Of a stretch of DNA of 61,707 bases, positions 36,691 through 43,482 are shown one piece after another. Each line of letters begins with the position of its first letter. The stretch's first letter is position 1. Origin of the DNA: Thermodesulfovibrionia bacterium (GTDB lineage: Bacteria > Nitrospirota > Thermodesulfovibrionia > UBA6902). The notes under the pieces were generated by a model. The model made no database searches. It was not told the origin of the DNA and saw only the letters and a list, made by a program, of their open reading frames with translations. The position numbers and the translations under genes were made by a program. The stretch is taken from positions 1 to 61,707 of the forward strand of contig CAMYND010000040.1 in the NCBI GenBank assembly GCA_947259645.1. Reading direction: 5' to 3'.

Positions 36691-37254
36691 TCAATCTGCC
36701 TCTACGCCTTCGTTGAGTATATCGATCAAATTTGATCTGTACTTTCCTTCCTTGTCACGGAACTCTCCCTTAAAGAGGTTTGCCACAGGAACAGAGATCC
36801 TTGTCTGAATAACATGGCACTGCATACAGTTAAAGCGGTCACCGTCGAGCTTCCCCTCCAAATCTTTGCCAGTTCCGAGATCAACGAAGTGAGATTTCGG
36901 GATCGGAATGGCCCCCTGGCTTACCGCTTCTTCGGGCATGTGACAGTCCAGGCAGATATTCTCAGTCTGTGCGAGGGGGAGCATGCCGGTGATGTCATGA
37001 GGGATCAGGGGGGGACTGTTTTCAAATGCCCGTTCTATTCTCGTGCTCTCCCCGGGTTCAAGTGCTGTTATCTCCCCGTGGGACGGCGCGGTACCCTGTT
37101 CATCATATAATGTTTCTTTCCTGAGCCCCAGTTCTTCTTCTGAAAATGTCTGTTTTGCCGCAAAGTAGTCCATTTGGGCGTAGGCGAATGTTGTCACGGC
37201 AAGCAGTGGCAACACAACCAGCACAGCGGCAACTTTCTGCATATTTGTCATCAT
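36691..37254 (-). CDS. napB: NapB, diheme cytochrome c subunit of periplasmic nitrate reductase
   Basis: I place the start at 37254, where AAGGAGG stands 6 nt upstream; the frame is open to 37287, but that leader is unlikely. The 187-residue product has a signal peptide followed by two heme-binding CxxCH motifs (CLDCH and CMQCH). Additional His in QGAIPIPKSHF and GTAPSHGEI could be axial ligands. NapB passes electrons to NapA in the periplasm. It follows napH by about 30 bp. Confidence 0.94.
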   Translation of the reverse strand: MMTNMQKVAAVLVVLPLLAVTTFAYAQMDYFAAKQTFSEEELGLRKETLYDEQGTAPSHGEITALEPGESTRIERAFENSPPLIPHDITGMLPLAQTENICLDCHMPEEAVSQGAIPIPKSHFVDLGTGKDLEGKLDGDRFNCMQCHVIQTRISVPVANLFKGEFRDKEGKYRSNLIDILNEGVEAD

Positions 37255-37286
37255 TGTTTCCTCCTTTTCCCGATTATGGTTCGACA

Positions 37287-38093
37287 TTACGTAATCCCTG
37301 TTTTTTGATATATATTTCTGAATTTCATGGCATCATCACTACAGACCTCTATGCACCTGCCGCAATTAATGCATTCACCGGAACGTACCATTCCGCTTTC
37401 TTTTCCTACCATGTGTAGAACCTGTTCTTCAGGGCAGATTTCCAGGCATTTCATGCATAAGCTGCATTTTTCTCTGTTATAACCAACTCTCAAAAGGCCT
37501 GGCTTGCCTACAAGAGAATAGAAACCGCCAAGAGGGCAGAGGTGGCCGCAAAATCCGTTCTTGACAGCAACGAGATCAAAGAGAAACACTGTCAGTACAA
37601 ATGCCCAGCTGAACCCCATGCCGTAGATAATGCCCCGGTGAAGCGCGCCTATGGGGCTGATCCACTCAAATGCAGCAAGACCGAGAATCGCTGACAGTAT
37701 GAGAGCTAACCCCAGCACCCAGTATCTCGTGCCTCTTTTTGGCTCCCAGGACTGAGACCCGGCATCAATGCCGATGAGCCGTCTCAGCTTGTTCGCCGCA
37801 TCAGTTATGACATTCACCGGGCAGACCCAGCCGCAGAACACCCTTCCTCCCAGAACCGCATAAACAATGAGGACAATGAGCGCGCCGATGATTGCGTCGG
37901 TCGCGATAAAAGCGCCTGCGGAAAAGCTCTGCAGAACAGCAAAAGGATCTGAGAGCGGAATTGTATTCAGCACCTTTGCAGAGCTTAAGTTTCCCCTTAA
38001 GACATTCCATCCAAAGACATTGCCGGCAAAAAAGAGAAACAGGACTGATGTCTGTGTGATCCTTCGTGCTATCAGATATTTATATCGTCTCAT
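37287..38093 (-). CDS. napH: NapH, membrane ferredoxin of the nitrate reductase system
   Basis: NapH is an integral membrane iron-sulfur protein thought to pass quinol electrons toward NapG. The sequence shows four or five membrane segments, two CxxxCP motifs (CGWVCP and CGHLCPLGG) and two C-terminal [4Fe-4S] ferredoxin motifs (CSLCMKCLEICP and CINCGRCIEVC). I choose the ATG at 38093 because AAGGA is 7 nt upstream. An earlier ATG at 38120 lies inside the palindromic repeat and would add a repeat-derived MPCPYKDVH leader. The product is 268 residues, near the family norm. Confidence 0.93.
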   Translation of the reverse strand: MRRYKYLIARRITQTSVLFLFFAGNVFGWNVLRGNLSSAKVLNTIPLSDPFAVLQSFSAGAFIATDAIIGALIVLIVYAVLGGRVFCGWVCPVNVITDAANKLRRLIGIDAGSQSWEPKRGTRYWVLGLALILSAILGLAAFEWISPIGALHRGIIYGMGFSWAFVLTVFLFDLVAVKNGFCGHLCPLGGFYSLVGKPGLLRVGYNREKCSLCMKCLEICPEEQVLHMVGKESGMVRSGECINCGRCIEVCSDDAMKFRNIYQKTGIT

Positions 38094-38105
38094 ATGCACA
38101 TCCTT

Positions 38106-38133
38106 GTAAGGGCACGGCATGCCGTGCCCTTAC
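38106..38133. repeat. perfect 28-bp palindrome between napG and napH
   Basis: GTAAGGGCACGGCATGCCGTGCCCTTAC-type sequence: each 14-bp arm is the exact reverse complement of the other. It belongs to the family at 7372, 36353 and 38946. It sits directly before the napH ribosome binding site, where a hairpin could affect napH expression or message stability. Confidence 0.85.
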
Positions 38134-38134
38134 G

Positions 38135-38923
38135 TTAAAATTCCTCCGCGTTCAGATATTCAAGCGGTGCCTTATCGCTCCGCGGTGTCTCTGTCCTGAT
38201 ATCTCCTGTCAGATCTTTCATCCGCTCTTCATCCTGTTTGTCCCAGCCTTTTACATACCGTTTGCTCAATTGACCCATAGCAATATTCCGGGGCAGCACA
38301 AAGATGGCTGCTTTTTCTGTTATACATGCTTTTTCGCACATTCCGCATCCTGTGCAGGAATCACTATGAACAACAGGAGCGAGCATTGCGTGTTTGCCCG
38401 TCCTTACATTCCTCGTATAATCGACACTCAGTGCAACATCAATCCGCGGACAGGCCCGGTAACAGGCATCGCACTGGATTCCGTCATAGGCAATGCAGGT
38501 TTCCCTGTCCAGGACAGCAAGTCCCATTCTGGCAAGATTGATATTAAGTTTTCCATCTCCCGTTTCCTCGGCGTCACTGACAGAAGACGCGTCAAGAGCA
38601 CCACTGGGACAGGCATCCACGCAGGGGATGTCCTTGCACATGTAACAGGGATTGGTTCTTGGAATAAAATAGGGCGTCCCTATAGGTTTGTCAGCCTCTG
38701 GTTTTGCCAGCTCCAGCGTATCATAGGGACAGGCCTCAACACAGAGGCCGCATTTCAGGCATGCAGCGAGGAACTCCTTTTCAGGCAGAGCTCCCGGAGG
38801 CCGGAGGATTAAGGGCGCAGACCTGCCTTCCTCGATAAACCCGCTCCACAGAAGTCCGCCCGTTGCAGCTACCCCGGCACTTTTCATCGCTTTGATCAGA
38901 AATTCTCTGCGTTCCGGCATCAT
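38135..38923 (-). CDS. napG: NapG, periplasmic ferredoxin with four [4Fe-4S] motifs
   Basis: The 262-residue protein has a short Tat-like signal (ERREFLIKAMKSAGVAAT) and four cysteine clusters of ferredoxin type: CLKCGLCVEACP, CYMCKDIPCVDACP, CDACYRACP and CTGCGMCEKAC. NapG together with NapH forms a quinol-oxidising route to NapB/NapA. In this operon, which has no napC, NapGH would be the only visible link to the quinone pool. It lies between napA and napH, with a palindromic element on each side. Confidence 0.94.
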   Translation of the reverse strand: MMPERREFLIKAMKSAGVAATGGLLWSGFIEEGRSAPLILRPPGALPEKEFLAACLKCGLCVEACPYDTLELAKPEADKPIGTPYFIPRTNPCYMCKDIPCVDACPSGALDASSVSDAEETGDGKLNINLARMGLAVLDRETCIAYDGIQCDACYRACPRIDVALSVDYTRNVRTGKHAMLAPVVHSDSCTGCGMCEKACITEKAAIFVLPRNIAMGQLSKRYVKGWDKQDEERMKDLTGDIRTETPRSDKAPLEYLNAEEF

Positions 38924-38945
38924 ATACTCTTTTCCTTGTTAAATT

Positions 38946-38974
38946 GTAGGGGCGAGGCAGCGCCTCGCCCCTAC
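38946..38974. repeat. palindromic element between napA and napG
   Basis: Perfect 13-bp arms (GTAGGGGCGAGGC / GCCTCGCCCCTAC) flank an AGC loop. It is a member of the same interspersed palindrome family, lying in the 59-bp gap after the napA stop codon. The strong hairpin could separate the napA message from the downstream genes or protect its 3' end. Confidence 0.85.
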
Positions 38975-38982
38975 CTGCTCGC

Positions 38983-41757
38983 CTACGCCTTATACAGTTT
39001 TACTGCACATTTCTTGAAATCTATCTCCTTTGACATCGGGCAGGTAGCATCAAGGGTTACCTTATTGATGAGAACTTTTTCATCAAACCAGGGAACGAAT
39101 ACCATACCTCTCGGCGGATTGTTTCGTCCTCTGGTATCAATCCTGGCCTTTACTTTCCCCCTCCTTGACTCCAGCCAGATGAGTTGACCGTCTTTCATGT
39201 AATTATCCTTCGCGTCTTTCGGGTTCATATAGGCTAATGCCTCCGGAACTGCACGGTAGAGTTCAGGCACCCGCATAGTCATTGTACCGCTGTGCCAGTG
39301 TTCGAGCACCCTTCCGGTAGAGAGCCAGAAAGGATATTCCTTGTTTGGTATTTCTGCCGGCTCAGCATAGTGTCTGAGAAATATCTTCGCCTTATTCGGA
39401 AGCTTTACCGTTCCTTTGCTTTTATCGGGACCGAGGAGATCTCCCTGCGGTATCTCCTTGAGGGCCTTTCCATAGAAAGCAAACTTGCCATGATTGGCAG
39501 CTTTTGCGTAGGGGTCATACTCAGCGTTGAATCTCCATTCAGTCTCCTTCCCGTTTATCACAGGCCATTTTAATCCGCGCACTTTGTGGTAGGTATCAAA
39601 ATCTGCAAGGTCATGACCATTTCCTATTCCGAACTTGCGGTACTCTTCCCAGAGATACTTTTGCAAAAAGAAACCGTATCCCTTAAATCCTTCCACGTCC
39701 CTCTTGTCCCCCCCTACCTCTGAGTTTATAAAGCCTTTGCCAATGGGATCAGGCCACGTGTATGATTTTGCTTCTGAGTTCGCATAGAGCACATCGTAGA
39801 GGGTGTCAGTTTCCTTGTACCCCATAGCCTTCGCCTTGGCCAGGACATCAGGGAGGGTTACCTTATCGTTTATTTTGTTTTCTTTCCAGACTTCGGCAAG
39901 GGTGAACCTCTTGGCAAACTCTACCAGCTGCCATGTATCTGACATGGCATTGCCGATCGGTGTTACCTGCTGCTTCCAATGCTGGGTTCTCCGCTCCGCG
40001 TTGCCGTATGCGCCCCATTTCTCATAGATCATCGCACTGGGCAGGATAAGGTCCGCAACCTTTGCGGAAATACCGGGGTACACTTCGGACACTACGATAA
40101 AGTTGTCCATATCTCTCGCCGCCTTAATCCAGTGGTTCATATTGGCTGTATTCTGCCAGGGGTTATTGACCTGAACCCATGTCCACTTTATCGTGCCGTC
40201 TTCAAGGTCGCGCATGATTTTTGTGTAGTGCGAACCCACAACAGGGTTGAGAGTCCCTTCCGGCAGCTTCCAGAGTTTCTCTGATTTTGCCCTGTGTTTC
40301 GGATTTGCAACAACCATGTCAGCAGGAAGCCTGTGCGCAAAGGTGCCTACTTCCCGCGCTGTGCCGCACGCGCTTGGTTGACCGGTAAGGCTGAATGCTC
40401 CATTACCGGGCTGAGACTGTTTGCCCAGAAGGAGGTGGACCATATACATCTGCTCATTTACCCATGATCCCCTGACATGCTGGTTAAAGCCCATAGTCCA
40501 GAAGCTGACCGCTTTTCTGTCTTTTTCAACGTAATAGTCCACAAGCTTTTTCAGTTTACCCTTAAAACTGTCAAGAGACTCATCAGCGTCACCTTTTGAA
40601 AGCTTTGCGACAAAGTCGAGTGTGTAGGGCTCAAGTCCTTTTTTGAAGTCCTCAAAACTGATGGCCCAGTGTTTGACCGGTTTCTTGGTATTCTTCATTT
40701 CCATCTTCTGACCGGCCTTAAATCCGAGAGAGCTCATTGCATGTGCCTCGTCTTCAGTAATGATTTTTGACTTCTCTCTGGCAACAGTGTCCAGTTCTCC
40801 TGTTTTAAATTTTGAATGAGTTGTGTCTGAACGCATCCCATATCCAATATCCACAGGACCTGTCGCGAATATACAGTTCTGATTAACAAAATCCCAGTCT
40901 ATGGTTTCAGGCCTGTTATAGACAATTTCACGGGCTATGTAATTAAGGAGCGCCAGGTCAGTATTTGGTTTGAAAACGATTTCCTCGTCAGCTATGCTGG
41001 AACTCCTGTTTGAAAAGGTTGTAAGGTTAATGACTTTTACCCAGTCTGGTTTACTCAGTTTCCTGTCGGTGATCTTTGACCAGAGGACCGGATGCATCTC
41101 TGACATGTTTGCACCCCACAGGACAATAGAGTCAGCATAGTGCATATCGTCATAATTGCCTGCGGGCTCATCAATGCCAAATGTCTGGATAAAACCCACG
41201 ACCGCGCTTGCCATGCAGTGGCGGGCATTGGGGTCAATGTTGTTGCTTCTGAATCCGGCCTTCATTAATTTCACCGCTGCTACACCTTCTGGAATGGTGT
41301 ACTGTCCGGAACCGAACAAGGAGACCCCTTTTGGACCCATTTCTTTGTAGTACTTCTTGAACTGCAATTCCATTTCATCGAAAGCCCGCTCCCAGGAAAC
41401 TGGTTGGAATTTACCTTTTTTGTCAAACTCTCCCTTACTGTTTACGCGAAGAAGCGGGTCGGTCAGCCTGTCAGCTCCGTACATGATCTTCGCGTTAAAA
41501 TATCCCTTGATGCAGTTCAGGCCGAGGTTAACCGGTGCAAGGGGATCACCCTTTACCGCGACGATCATGTCATTCTTGGTAGCAATCATGATCCCGCATC
41601 CTGTACCGCAAAACCTGCACACAGACTTGTCCCATCGCCATGCGGCTTCAGTTTTCATAGCTGCGGCTTTAGCGTCTTCGGGAACTGCCATGCCGAGGGC
41701 AGTCGCAGCGCTGACAGCTGCCGTTGTTTTTAGAAAGTCTCTCCGGGAAACGTTCAT
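38983..41757 (-). CDS. napA: NapA, catalytic subunit of periplasmic nitrate reductase
   Basis: The 924-residue molybdoenzyme reduces nitrate to nitrite in the periplasm. It begins with a Tat signal ([18 protein letters not shown]). The [4Fe-4S] motif follows as [17 protein letters not shown], with the fourth Cys in LNCIKGYFN. The molybdenum-ligating Cys is in [14 protein letters not shown]. Molybdopterin-binding segments such as [14 protein letters not shown] and [15 protein letters not shown] are present, and length is normal. It heads napA-napG-napH-napB-napD. The 590-bp region upstream must hold the promoter. The enzyme suggests nitrate respiration or redox balancing; no nitrite reductase is in the window. 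Confidence 0.96.
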
Positions 41758-42348
41758 GTCTGGCCTCCTTCTGTTTGATTAAGGATTTTATTTATATCTA
41801 AAATGAATGACAGATGTCTGGACAAGAATGGAGTGCAGAGCAGAAAACAGATTAACTTCAGATACTGCACTATGGGAAGCGCGCTCATCATATGCTCAGT
41901 TACGTGCTACAGGGTTAACCATCTTTAATAGATTGATCAATAACTGAATCTGATGTTAAAGTGCTGTTAATGTACGTTAAGAAATTCTAATGTATTAGTT
42001 CTTACTGATGATCATAATTCTTTTAATATTGAATGGCAATCCGGTTAATAAGGGTATAAATATTTAATATTTATGAGAAATTGGAACTCATAATCAACGA
42101 TTCAGGAGAACAGCCGAGCCGGAATTGAAATTGTGCTTTAAATAGAATGAGGTTTAAATCTTCGTGAGAGATGGGGACCGGATTGGCGTCAGAATTATCA
42201 AGATTATGAGTTATTATGGTATAAATAATATTAATGTTTCGAGGATTCAGCGCTCCGGTTATTTGCCGGACAGCAGACAGAAAGGACGCTCTCTCATTAT
42301 CCTCCAAAATTTGCTATTATAATGCTCAATAAGAGATGAGGTTTTACG
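41758..42348. other. intergenic region between divergent napA and VKOR genes
   Basis: This 590-bp AT-rich stretch should contain the promoters of the nap operon and of the VKOR gene. A palindrome TTGATCAA lies at 41933-41940 but lacks the spacer of an FNR site. A minus-strand frame at 42071-42307 has no recognisable features and is not called. I see nothing else of note. Confidence 0.45.
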
Positions 42349-43284
42349 GTGGCTAAAAAGAAAAAACGCGCAAAGACATCCCCAAAGAAAACAGCAACCC
42401 CAAGGGAAACAAAGCCAGGGGAAAAACCATCTGTCCAGGATAGCGGGAGAAAGAAGCATTCTCAACAGAAGCAGGAACATCGGAACTGGCTTCTGACAGG
42501 ATTGGCTGGTGCTGGTATGGTGTTGACGGCATACCTTGTCATTACCGCCTGGCTGGGTGAAGCGCCGCTGTACTGCGATGAGGGTAGTTCCTGCGACATT
42601 GTCCAGCAAAGTCGTTGGGGTACGTTTCTGGGAATTCCAACAGCTTTCTTTGGGTTTGTGGTTTATGCTCTGCTGGGACATATCGGGTACAGGTTCCGTC
42701 AACCAGCAAAGCAGTGGAAATGGGCCTGGGCTTTTTCTTTGCTGGGACTGGTTTACAGTATTTATCTCAACCTGATTTCTTTCTTTGTGATTGAGGCGAT
42801 GTGTGCTTACTGTCTCCTTTCGCTGACAATAATGGCGACGATATTTGGAGTGGTTATTTACCAGCGGCCCGGCGCGGCTCGAGATTTTAAATTTAAAACC
42901 TGGGCCGGAGAGACTCTCATTGTAACACTCTTGATTGTCGGGGGGATGCACCTTCATTACAGTGGAGTATTTGATTCAAAAGCCGGCCCGGAAGATCCGT
43001 ACCTGAGAGGACTGGCCGAGCACCTTTCACAGGAAGAGGCGGTCATGTACGGAGCATTCTGGTGACCTGCCTGCGTGGAACAGAAGGATCTGTTCGAGGC
43101 ATCGGCTGACCGTCTTCCGTATGTGGAATGTTCTCCCAGTGGTCGAAAAGGGCCGGTGGCGGCTGTCTGCCGAAAGGAAAATATTAAGTCCTACCCAACA
43201 TGGGTCGTCAATGGGCAGCGGTATCAGGGGGTGCTAATGCCTGACCGTCTGGCCGTGCTTTCGGGATATAGCGGAGTGAAATAA
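42349..43284 (+). CDS. VKOR-thioredoxin fusion with in-frame UGA: candidate selenoprotein
   Basis: VKOR proteins reoxidise periplasmic disulfide-forming partners using quinone. After a Lys-rich leader the membrane part has the VKOR pattern: CDEGSSCDIVQQSRWG, LGIPTAFFGF and the active CAYCLLSLT. A thioredoxin-like domain follows, whose CxxC should read FWCPAC. Here the first Cys codon is TGA (43063-43065), giving FW-TGA-PAC, and the frame continues through VEQKDLFEASADRLPY and the cis-Pro motif SYPTWVVNG to a TAA at 43282-43284. Read as Sec, the protein is 311 residues with Sec at 239 in a Sec-x-x-Cys motif. A 7-bp hairpin follows at SECIS distance. The conserved 70-codon tail argues against a true stop. 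Start is a GTG with GAGG upstream. A point mutation is the alternative. Confidence 0.8.
43078..43095 (+). promoter_or_regulatory. SECIS-like hairpin after the VKOR UGA
   Basis: GAACAGA (43078-43084) pairs perfectly with TCTGTTC (43089-43095) around the loop AGGA, with G at loop positions two and three. The loop starts 19 nt after the UGA. TGCC at 43068-43071 can also pair with GGCA at 43098-43101 as an outer stem. This meets the published bacterial SECIS criteria on loop size, loop G and spacing. Confidence 0.7.
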
Positions 43285-43305
43285 TCGCAGGAATGCCAGA
43301 CAGGT

Positions 43306-43482
43306 ATGATCCCGAAATACCTTCACCTTCCTGTTGTTGATGAGGGGCGTCTTGTTGGTGTTATCAGTATCGGAGATGTGGTGAATGCCATTATTGTGTC
43401 ACAGAGAATTGAAATTGATGACCTGAAGAACTATCTCTGTGGTGAAGGAATTGACAGTGAATGGACAGCCTCATGGCGTTGA
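43306..43482 (+). pseudogene. C-terminal fragment of a CBS-domain protein
   Basis: The frame encodes the end of a CBS domain and its usual tail: LHLPVVDEGRLVGVISIGD, then VVNAIIVSQRIEIDDLKNYL. The front of the domain, including its first strand and DIM-type start, is missing. An in-frame stop lies at 43282-43284, in fact the end of the VKOR gene. I regard it as a remnant of a single- or double-CBS gene truncated when the VKOR gene came to lie upstream. Expression as a 58-residue peptide would be unlikely to fold. Confidence 0.7.

Follow-up and report, generated by a model that had tools for sequence, protein, structure and literature searches.

A predicted selenocysteine form of the VKOR-thioredoxin disulfide-forming enzyme in Nitrospirota

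Introduction

Does an in-frame TGA in the thioredoxin part of a VKOR-thioredoxin gene end the protein, or is it read as selenocysteine (Sec)? The question is raised by a gene of a Thermodesulfovibrionia bacterium (Nitrospirota; assembly GCA_947259645.1), in the first 61,707 nucleotides of the forward strand of contig CAMYND010000040.1. This whole stretch is referred to as the window. We compared the gene with its relatives, with solved structures, and with the published inventory of prokaryotic selenoproteins. The comparison indicates that the gene very probably encodes a genuine selenoprotein, a quinone-linked, disulfide-forming VKOR-thioredoxin fusion in which UGA codon 239 is translated as Sec by SelB and tRNA-Sec under the direction of an mRNA hairpin.

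Results

Gene structure and the in-frame TGA

Direct reading of the forward strand gave a frame running from a GTG to a TAA at 42349-43284, with a single internal TGA at 43063-43065 in the context YGAFW-TGA-PAC. An earlier note on this DNA had placed the TGA at the first Cys of the expected CxxC motif, and this was borne out. The note had further described 73 codons after the TGA; the conserved in-frame tail up to the TAA stood, but the tail has 72 codons and the figure of 73 includes the stop. The translation around the TGA reads EEAVMYGAFW-U-PACVEQKDLFEASADRLPYVECSPSGRKGPVAAVCRKENIKSYPTWVV…SGYSGVK (the ellipsis marks residues left out). The start of the gene is supported by homologues sharing the same N-terminus, (L/M)GKKKK, and by an in-frame stop directly upstream (42337-42339). 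The features of the locus are as follows.

42335..42341, + strand: probable ribosome-binding site GATGAGG, 7 nt 5' of the GTG, judged from direct reading
42349..43284, + strand: predicted Sec-VKOR-thioredoxin gene, 311 residues, GTG start, TAA stop
42487..42855, + strand: VKOR membrane domain, residues 47-169 (Pfam PF07884, 81.9 bits, E 6e-23)
42574..42594, + strand: periplasmic loop pair Cys76 and Cys82, equivalent by alignment to Cys50/Cys56 of Synechococcus VKOR
42802..42813, + strand: quinone-side CAYC, Cys152-Cys155, equivalent by alignment to Cys130/Cys133 of Synechococcus VKOR
42997..43269, + strand: thioredoxin-like domain, residues 217-307, uninterrupted across the TGA (phmmer to 3kp8/3kp9, AlphaFold, Foldseek)
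43063..43065, + strand: in-frame TGA, predicted Sec239 of a UxxC motif with Cys242, equivalent to Cys209 of Synechococcus VKOR
43078..43095, + strand: predicted SECIS apical hairpin, 7-bp stem, AGGA loop at 43085-43088
43129..43170, + strand: Cys261 and Cys274, second cysteine pair of the thioredoxin domain, conserved in Sec and Cys forms by alignment, a probable structural disulfide
43195..43197, + strand: cis-proline loop, Pro283 of SYPTW, by alignment

On one side the gene adjoins a divergent nap-like cluster (36691-41757, minus strand) that contains NapB, two ferredoxin-type proteins (NapH/NapG-like) and a TAT-signal molybdopterin oxidoreductase of 924 aa. Directly 3' of the gene lies a 59-codon frame (43303-43482, plus strand) that matches only positions 31-55 of the 57 positions of the CBS domain in Pfam and seems to be what is left of a larger gene.

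Protein family and structure

The membrane domain scored 81.9 bits against a Pfam gathering cut-off of 27.5, which identifies it as VKOR. In phmmer searches, residues 41-307 aligned with the Synechococcus VKOR-thioredoxin structures 3kp9, 4nv2, 4nv5 and 4nv6 (E about 1e-47), which set the TGA, codon 239, against Cys209. The two proteins share a VKOR bundle, a loop Cys pair, a CxxC and a C-terminal thioredoxin domain. They differ in that Cys209 is replaced here by UGA (predicted Sec), that the mRNA carries a SECIS hairpin, and that the host has Sec machinery. With a thin alignment behind it, the membrane half of the AlphaFold model had a low pLDDT (mostly 39-76), and for this reason only the thioredoxin half (pLDDT mostly 83-95) was used; in Foldseek it matched 3kp8 with a TM score of 0.95, at 0.7 Å and 53% identity. 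The Pfam models DSBA (PF01323) and Thioredoxin (PF00085) gave no match to the protein at E 0.001. Where the thioredoxin domain of the Synechococcus-type fusion has CxxC, this protein has UGA-xx-C. Since the homology is clear over the whole length despite this, we filed the protein as a Sec variant rather than as a plain member of the VKOR-thioredoxin fusions.

A constrained hairpin behind the TGA

The hairpin GAACAGA-AGGA-UCUGUUC begins 12 nt 3' of the UGA, with the first G of its loop at 43086. Its seven perfect pairs, its AGGA loop and its position are those given in the earlier note, which had also judged the loop G to stand at the distance of a bacterial SECIS. In the published model, a bacterial SECIS has a loop of 3-9 nt, a stem of 4-16 bp, a minimum free energy (MFE) of at most -7.5, a G in the first two loop positions that is usually followed by G or U, and a spacing of 16-37 nt from the UGA (PMC13188914). 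All these constraints were satisfied in 17 of 17 Sec-type genes (loop of 4 nt, stem of 7 bp, spacing of 19 nt, MFE -10 to -17), with a G in the second loop position and a G or U after it, so that the judgement on distance agrees with the model. Within the whole window, a perfect 7-bp SECIS-like stem followed only 12 of 2785 TGA triplets. Of the 21 frames of at least 150 codons that end in TGA, this one alone has such a stem, and the hairpin is absent from the window's other TGA-joined frames. The folding energy of the 45 nt 3' of the UGA is -19.7 kcal/mol, with a z score of -3.25 relative to shuffled sequences.

Across the 17 Sec genes all seven stem pairs are kept (3-6 of 7 in the Cys genes described below) and the loop reads A-G-[G/U]-[A/C]. 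Because no stem base varies, covariation was uninformative and invariance at synonymous sites was used instead: among degenerate codons with an invariant amino acid, positions +1 to +12 were compared with the rest of the gene. In the Sec genes, 6 of 7 such codons were invariant at the DNA level at +1 to +12, compared with 2 of 64 elsewhere (Fisher p 1.3e-6), and in the Cys genes the same test found 0 of 7. Searches of the genome with Rfam RF00031 (SECIS_1) and of the window with Rfam gave no match. As the controls were likewise silent and RF00031 is, we assume, a model of the eukaryotic SECIS, this null result was not counted.

Conservation of the TGA and of the tail

Full-length homologues were found in 15 of 61 related genomes (16 genes), each with exactly one in-frame TGA, and a further one came from a genome, G311, that belongs to a different family of the class. 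Across 230 genomes surveyed in the class, no additional full-length member and no Cys form was recovered; the phylum surveyed in depth was Nitrospirota. The TGA occupies the identical codon in all 17 full-length genes (16 genomes), inside GA[FY]WUP[AST]C, and the other clade members are 55-70% identical to the protein studied. One draft genome (G020) holds two different Sec-VKOR copies, L016 and L028, on two contigs, owing to a real duplication or a mixed assembly (5% contamination).

The window comes from a draft assembly of 131 contigs, where a TGC or TGT could have been misread. We give almost no credence to such an assembly or sequencing error, because the identical TGA is kept in 17 independent sequences from 16 assemblies. 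The TGC or TGT that the earlier note had thought resequencing might reveal is thus not borne out.

A second reading takes the UGA as a true stop: the VKOR would end after 238 residues, with its thioredoxin domain cut short, and what follows would be a decaying remnant. UGA is a normal stop elsewhere in this organism, as in the 21 long frames mentioned above, and 11 of the 17 relatives terminate this very gene with TGA. However, a truncation here would fall within the active-site motif, and none of the 17 genes carries a frameshift or a second internal stop. The dN/dS of the tail is about 0.06-0.2 in the nearest pairs across the clade, with a median of 0.18, compared with 0.13 for the part 5' of the TGA. 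This purifying selection on the tail 3' of the hairpin indicates that it is translated and needed, and a true stop is highly improbable. No relative with a true stop and an unconserved tail, the other finding that the earlier note had set against its reading, was seen in the clade. A pseudogene was also considered and rejected, as the TGA and the tail are conserved in the clade.

Cysteine homologues and selenocysteine machinery

A sister family in the same phylum (f32) has stop-free homologues in 25 genomes. These share the architecture, 44-50% of residues and the flanking motif YGAYWCPRCQEQK with the Sec type, but have TGC or TGT at the site in all 19 loci read (L071-L089), a degraded hairpin, and no selA in 25 of 25 genomes. 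Cys also stands at the site in cyanobacterial and archaeal thioredoxin homologues. The genome of the window encodes a complete set of Sec genes (positions by contig of that genome).

C11:33698-35041: selA
C11:35311-37176: selB, adjoining selA
C83:8136-8229: tRNA-Sec, anticodon TCA (ARAGORN)
C94:2026-2940: selD (L069), itself with an in-frame TGA

SelD is a TGA gene in nearly all relatives searched as well, and some genomes (G014, G036 and G040) have two SelD matches, each with an in-frame TGA. Two of the checks proposed in the earlier note, a search for selA, selB, selD and tRNA-Sec and an alignment of homologues, thus both returned what a Sec codon predicts. Each of the 16 genomes that carry the TGA form contains selA. 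This selA gene is also present in most genomes of the class that lack Sec-VKOR, so the contrast is one between the two families, and the machinery does not track VKOR within the class.

Could the UGA be read as Cys, Trp or Arg by a suppressor or by readthrough that uses no selenium? Some organisms are known to insert Cys at UGA when selenium is scarce, and the sequence alone is compatible with another residue at this codon. Nevertheless, the homologues carry a redox Cys at the position, the SECIS hairpin is invariant, the Sec machinery is complete down to a tRNA-Sec(TCA), and the Cys homologues are confined to genomes without selA. Readthrough of this kind is accordingly improbable. A general reassignment of UGA was considered and rejected.

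On the phylogenetic tree, a single branch (support 92/88) separates the Sec sequences from the rest, so that one change accounts for the distribution. The far outgroups, on a very long branch, are all Cys, which favours a single Cys-to-Sec change in the Nitrospirota lineage that led to Sec-VKOR; alternatively, Sec may have been exchanged once for Cys in f32, in genomes that lack Sec machinery.

Discussion

Sequence comparison establishes that the UGA is conserved, the hairpin constrained, the Sec machinery present and the tail under purifying selection, and that Cys homologues exist. VKOR is absent from the 119 prokaryotic selenoprotein families of the 2026 inventory (PMC13188914), and the terms "VKOR" and "vitamin K" occur neither there nor in a 2022 review. 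In a search of the full-text literature, with preprints, subscription papers and current NCBI records outside its range, we found no description of Sec in VKOR or DsbB. The earlier note, which knew of no described example, is in line with these sources. As far as could be checked, the predicted protein would be a new selenoprotein family, though of a known kind: a thiol enzyme already described, here with Sec. It is probably the first Sec-dependent disulfide generator, a thioredoxin-fused VKOR passing electrons to membrane quinone through a Sec-Cys relay, which arose once from a Cys enzyme in Nitrospirota or whose Sec was once replaced by Cys.

Its nearest functional cousins are the DsbA-like and DsbG-like UxxC proteins, which, with thioredoxin, are among the UxxC selenoproteins of the 2026 inventory (PMC13188914, Table 1). 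These are likewise thioredoxin-fold oxidoreductases with Sec first in the active motif but, unlike Sec-VKOR, they are neither members of VKOR nor fused to it. TsoB (rhodanese/DsbD fusion-like) is, by name, a selenoprotein of disulfide-exchange type related to a membrane protein (PMC13188914), and hence a precedent for Sec in membrane-related disulfide-exchange chemistry; it differs in belonging to another family, in its motif UxxxxU with two Sec, and in having no VKOR domain listed.

In Synechococcus VKOR, electrons pass from the substrate to Cys209/212, the loop Cys50/56, Cys130/133 and finally the quinone, and Cys209 is bonded to Cys50 in the crystal (PMC4555152, PMC3800646). Both VKOR-domain cysteine pairs (Cys76/82 and Cys152/155) are present in all 17 Sec forms aligned. 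Because all partner cysteines are kept, we infer the same electron path, with a Sec239-Cys76 selenylsulfide as intermediate. SelB and tRNA-Sec would decode UGA codon 239 as Sec, with the hairpin 12 nt downstream as the signal. The periplasmic thioredoxin domain would oxidise substrate thiols through a Sec239-Cys242 selenylsulfide, and the reduced Sec239 would then attack the loop disulfide Cys76-Cys82, forming a mixed Se-S bond with Cys76 in place of Cys209-Cys50. Electrons would move on to Cys152/Cys155 and to membrane quinone, probably menaquinone. Sec is generally marked by faster exchange and by oxidation that can be reversed (PMC11431864). In this enzyme Sec would most likely accelerate the exchange step and shield the site from irreversible oxidation. 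When selenium is lacking, the ribosome would halt at the UGA and yield a 238-residue VKOR without most of its thioredoxin domain.

In thermodynamic terms, a Sec-Cys bond oxidises less strongly than a disulfide, which leaves room for an isomerase or reductase role. Sec-VKOR might be real but act chiefly as a disulfide isomerase or reductase, or as a peroxide-linked oxidase, rather than as a quinone-linked oxidase. Selenylsulfides are of low potential and fast, and the known UxxC selenoproteins mostly resemble reductases or peroxidases (PMC13188914). Such a role is plausible but unlikely, as Cys76/82 and Cys152/155 are intact, which is expected if electrons still reach the quinone.

The genome of the window has a DsbB-like gene (G000:C9:52314-52688, 41.9 bits), so Sec-VKOR is not its sole predicted disulfide source. 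Among the 12 genomes of family f1 in the sample with a VKOR match, just two, this one and G010, had DsbB as well. As judged from gene content, Sec-VKOR may be the main disulfide source in the f1 genomes with VKOR that lack DsbB. A VKOR domain was also found in a 530-codon stop-free frame of another genome (G040:C11:3154-3537, same order), in a fusion different from the Sec type.

Standard gene callers probably truncate the Sec genes at 238 residues, and the product would then be annotated as a VKOR lacking its thioredoxin partner. The predicted Sec sits at the exact residue that forms the mixed disulfide in the solved VKOR structure, and Sec-VKOR would thus allow a direct test of the benefit of selenium in disulfide formation, with the Sec and Cys forms of one enzyme, from sister families with and without Sec machinery, as natural controls. 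If translated as predicted, it would extend selenoproteins to an enzyme type missing from the newest published inventory.
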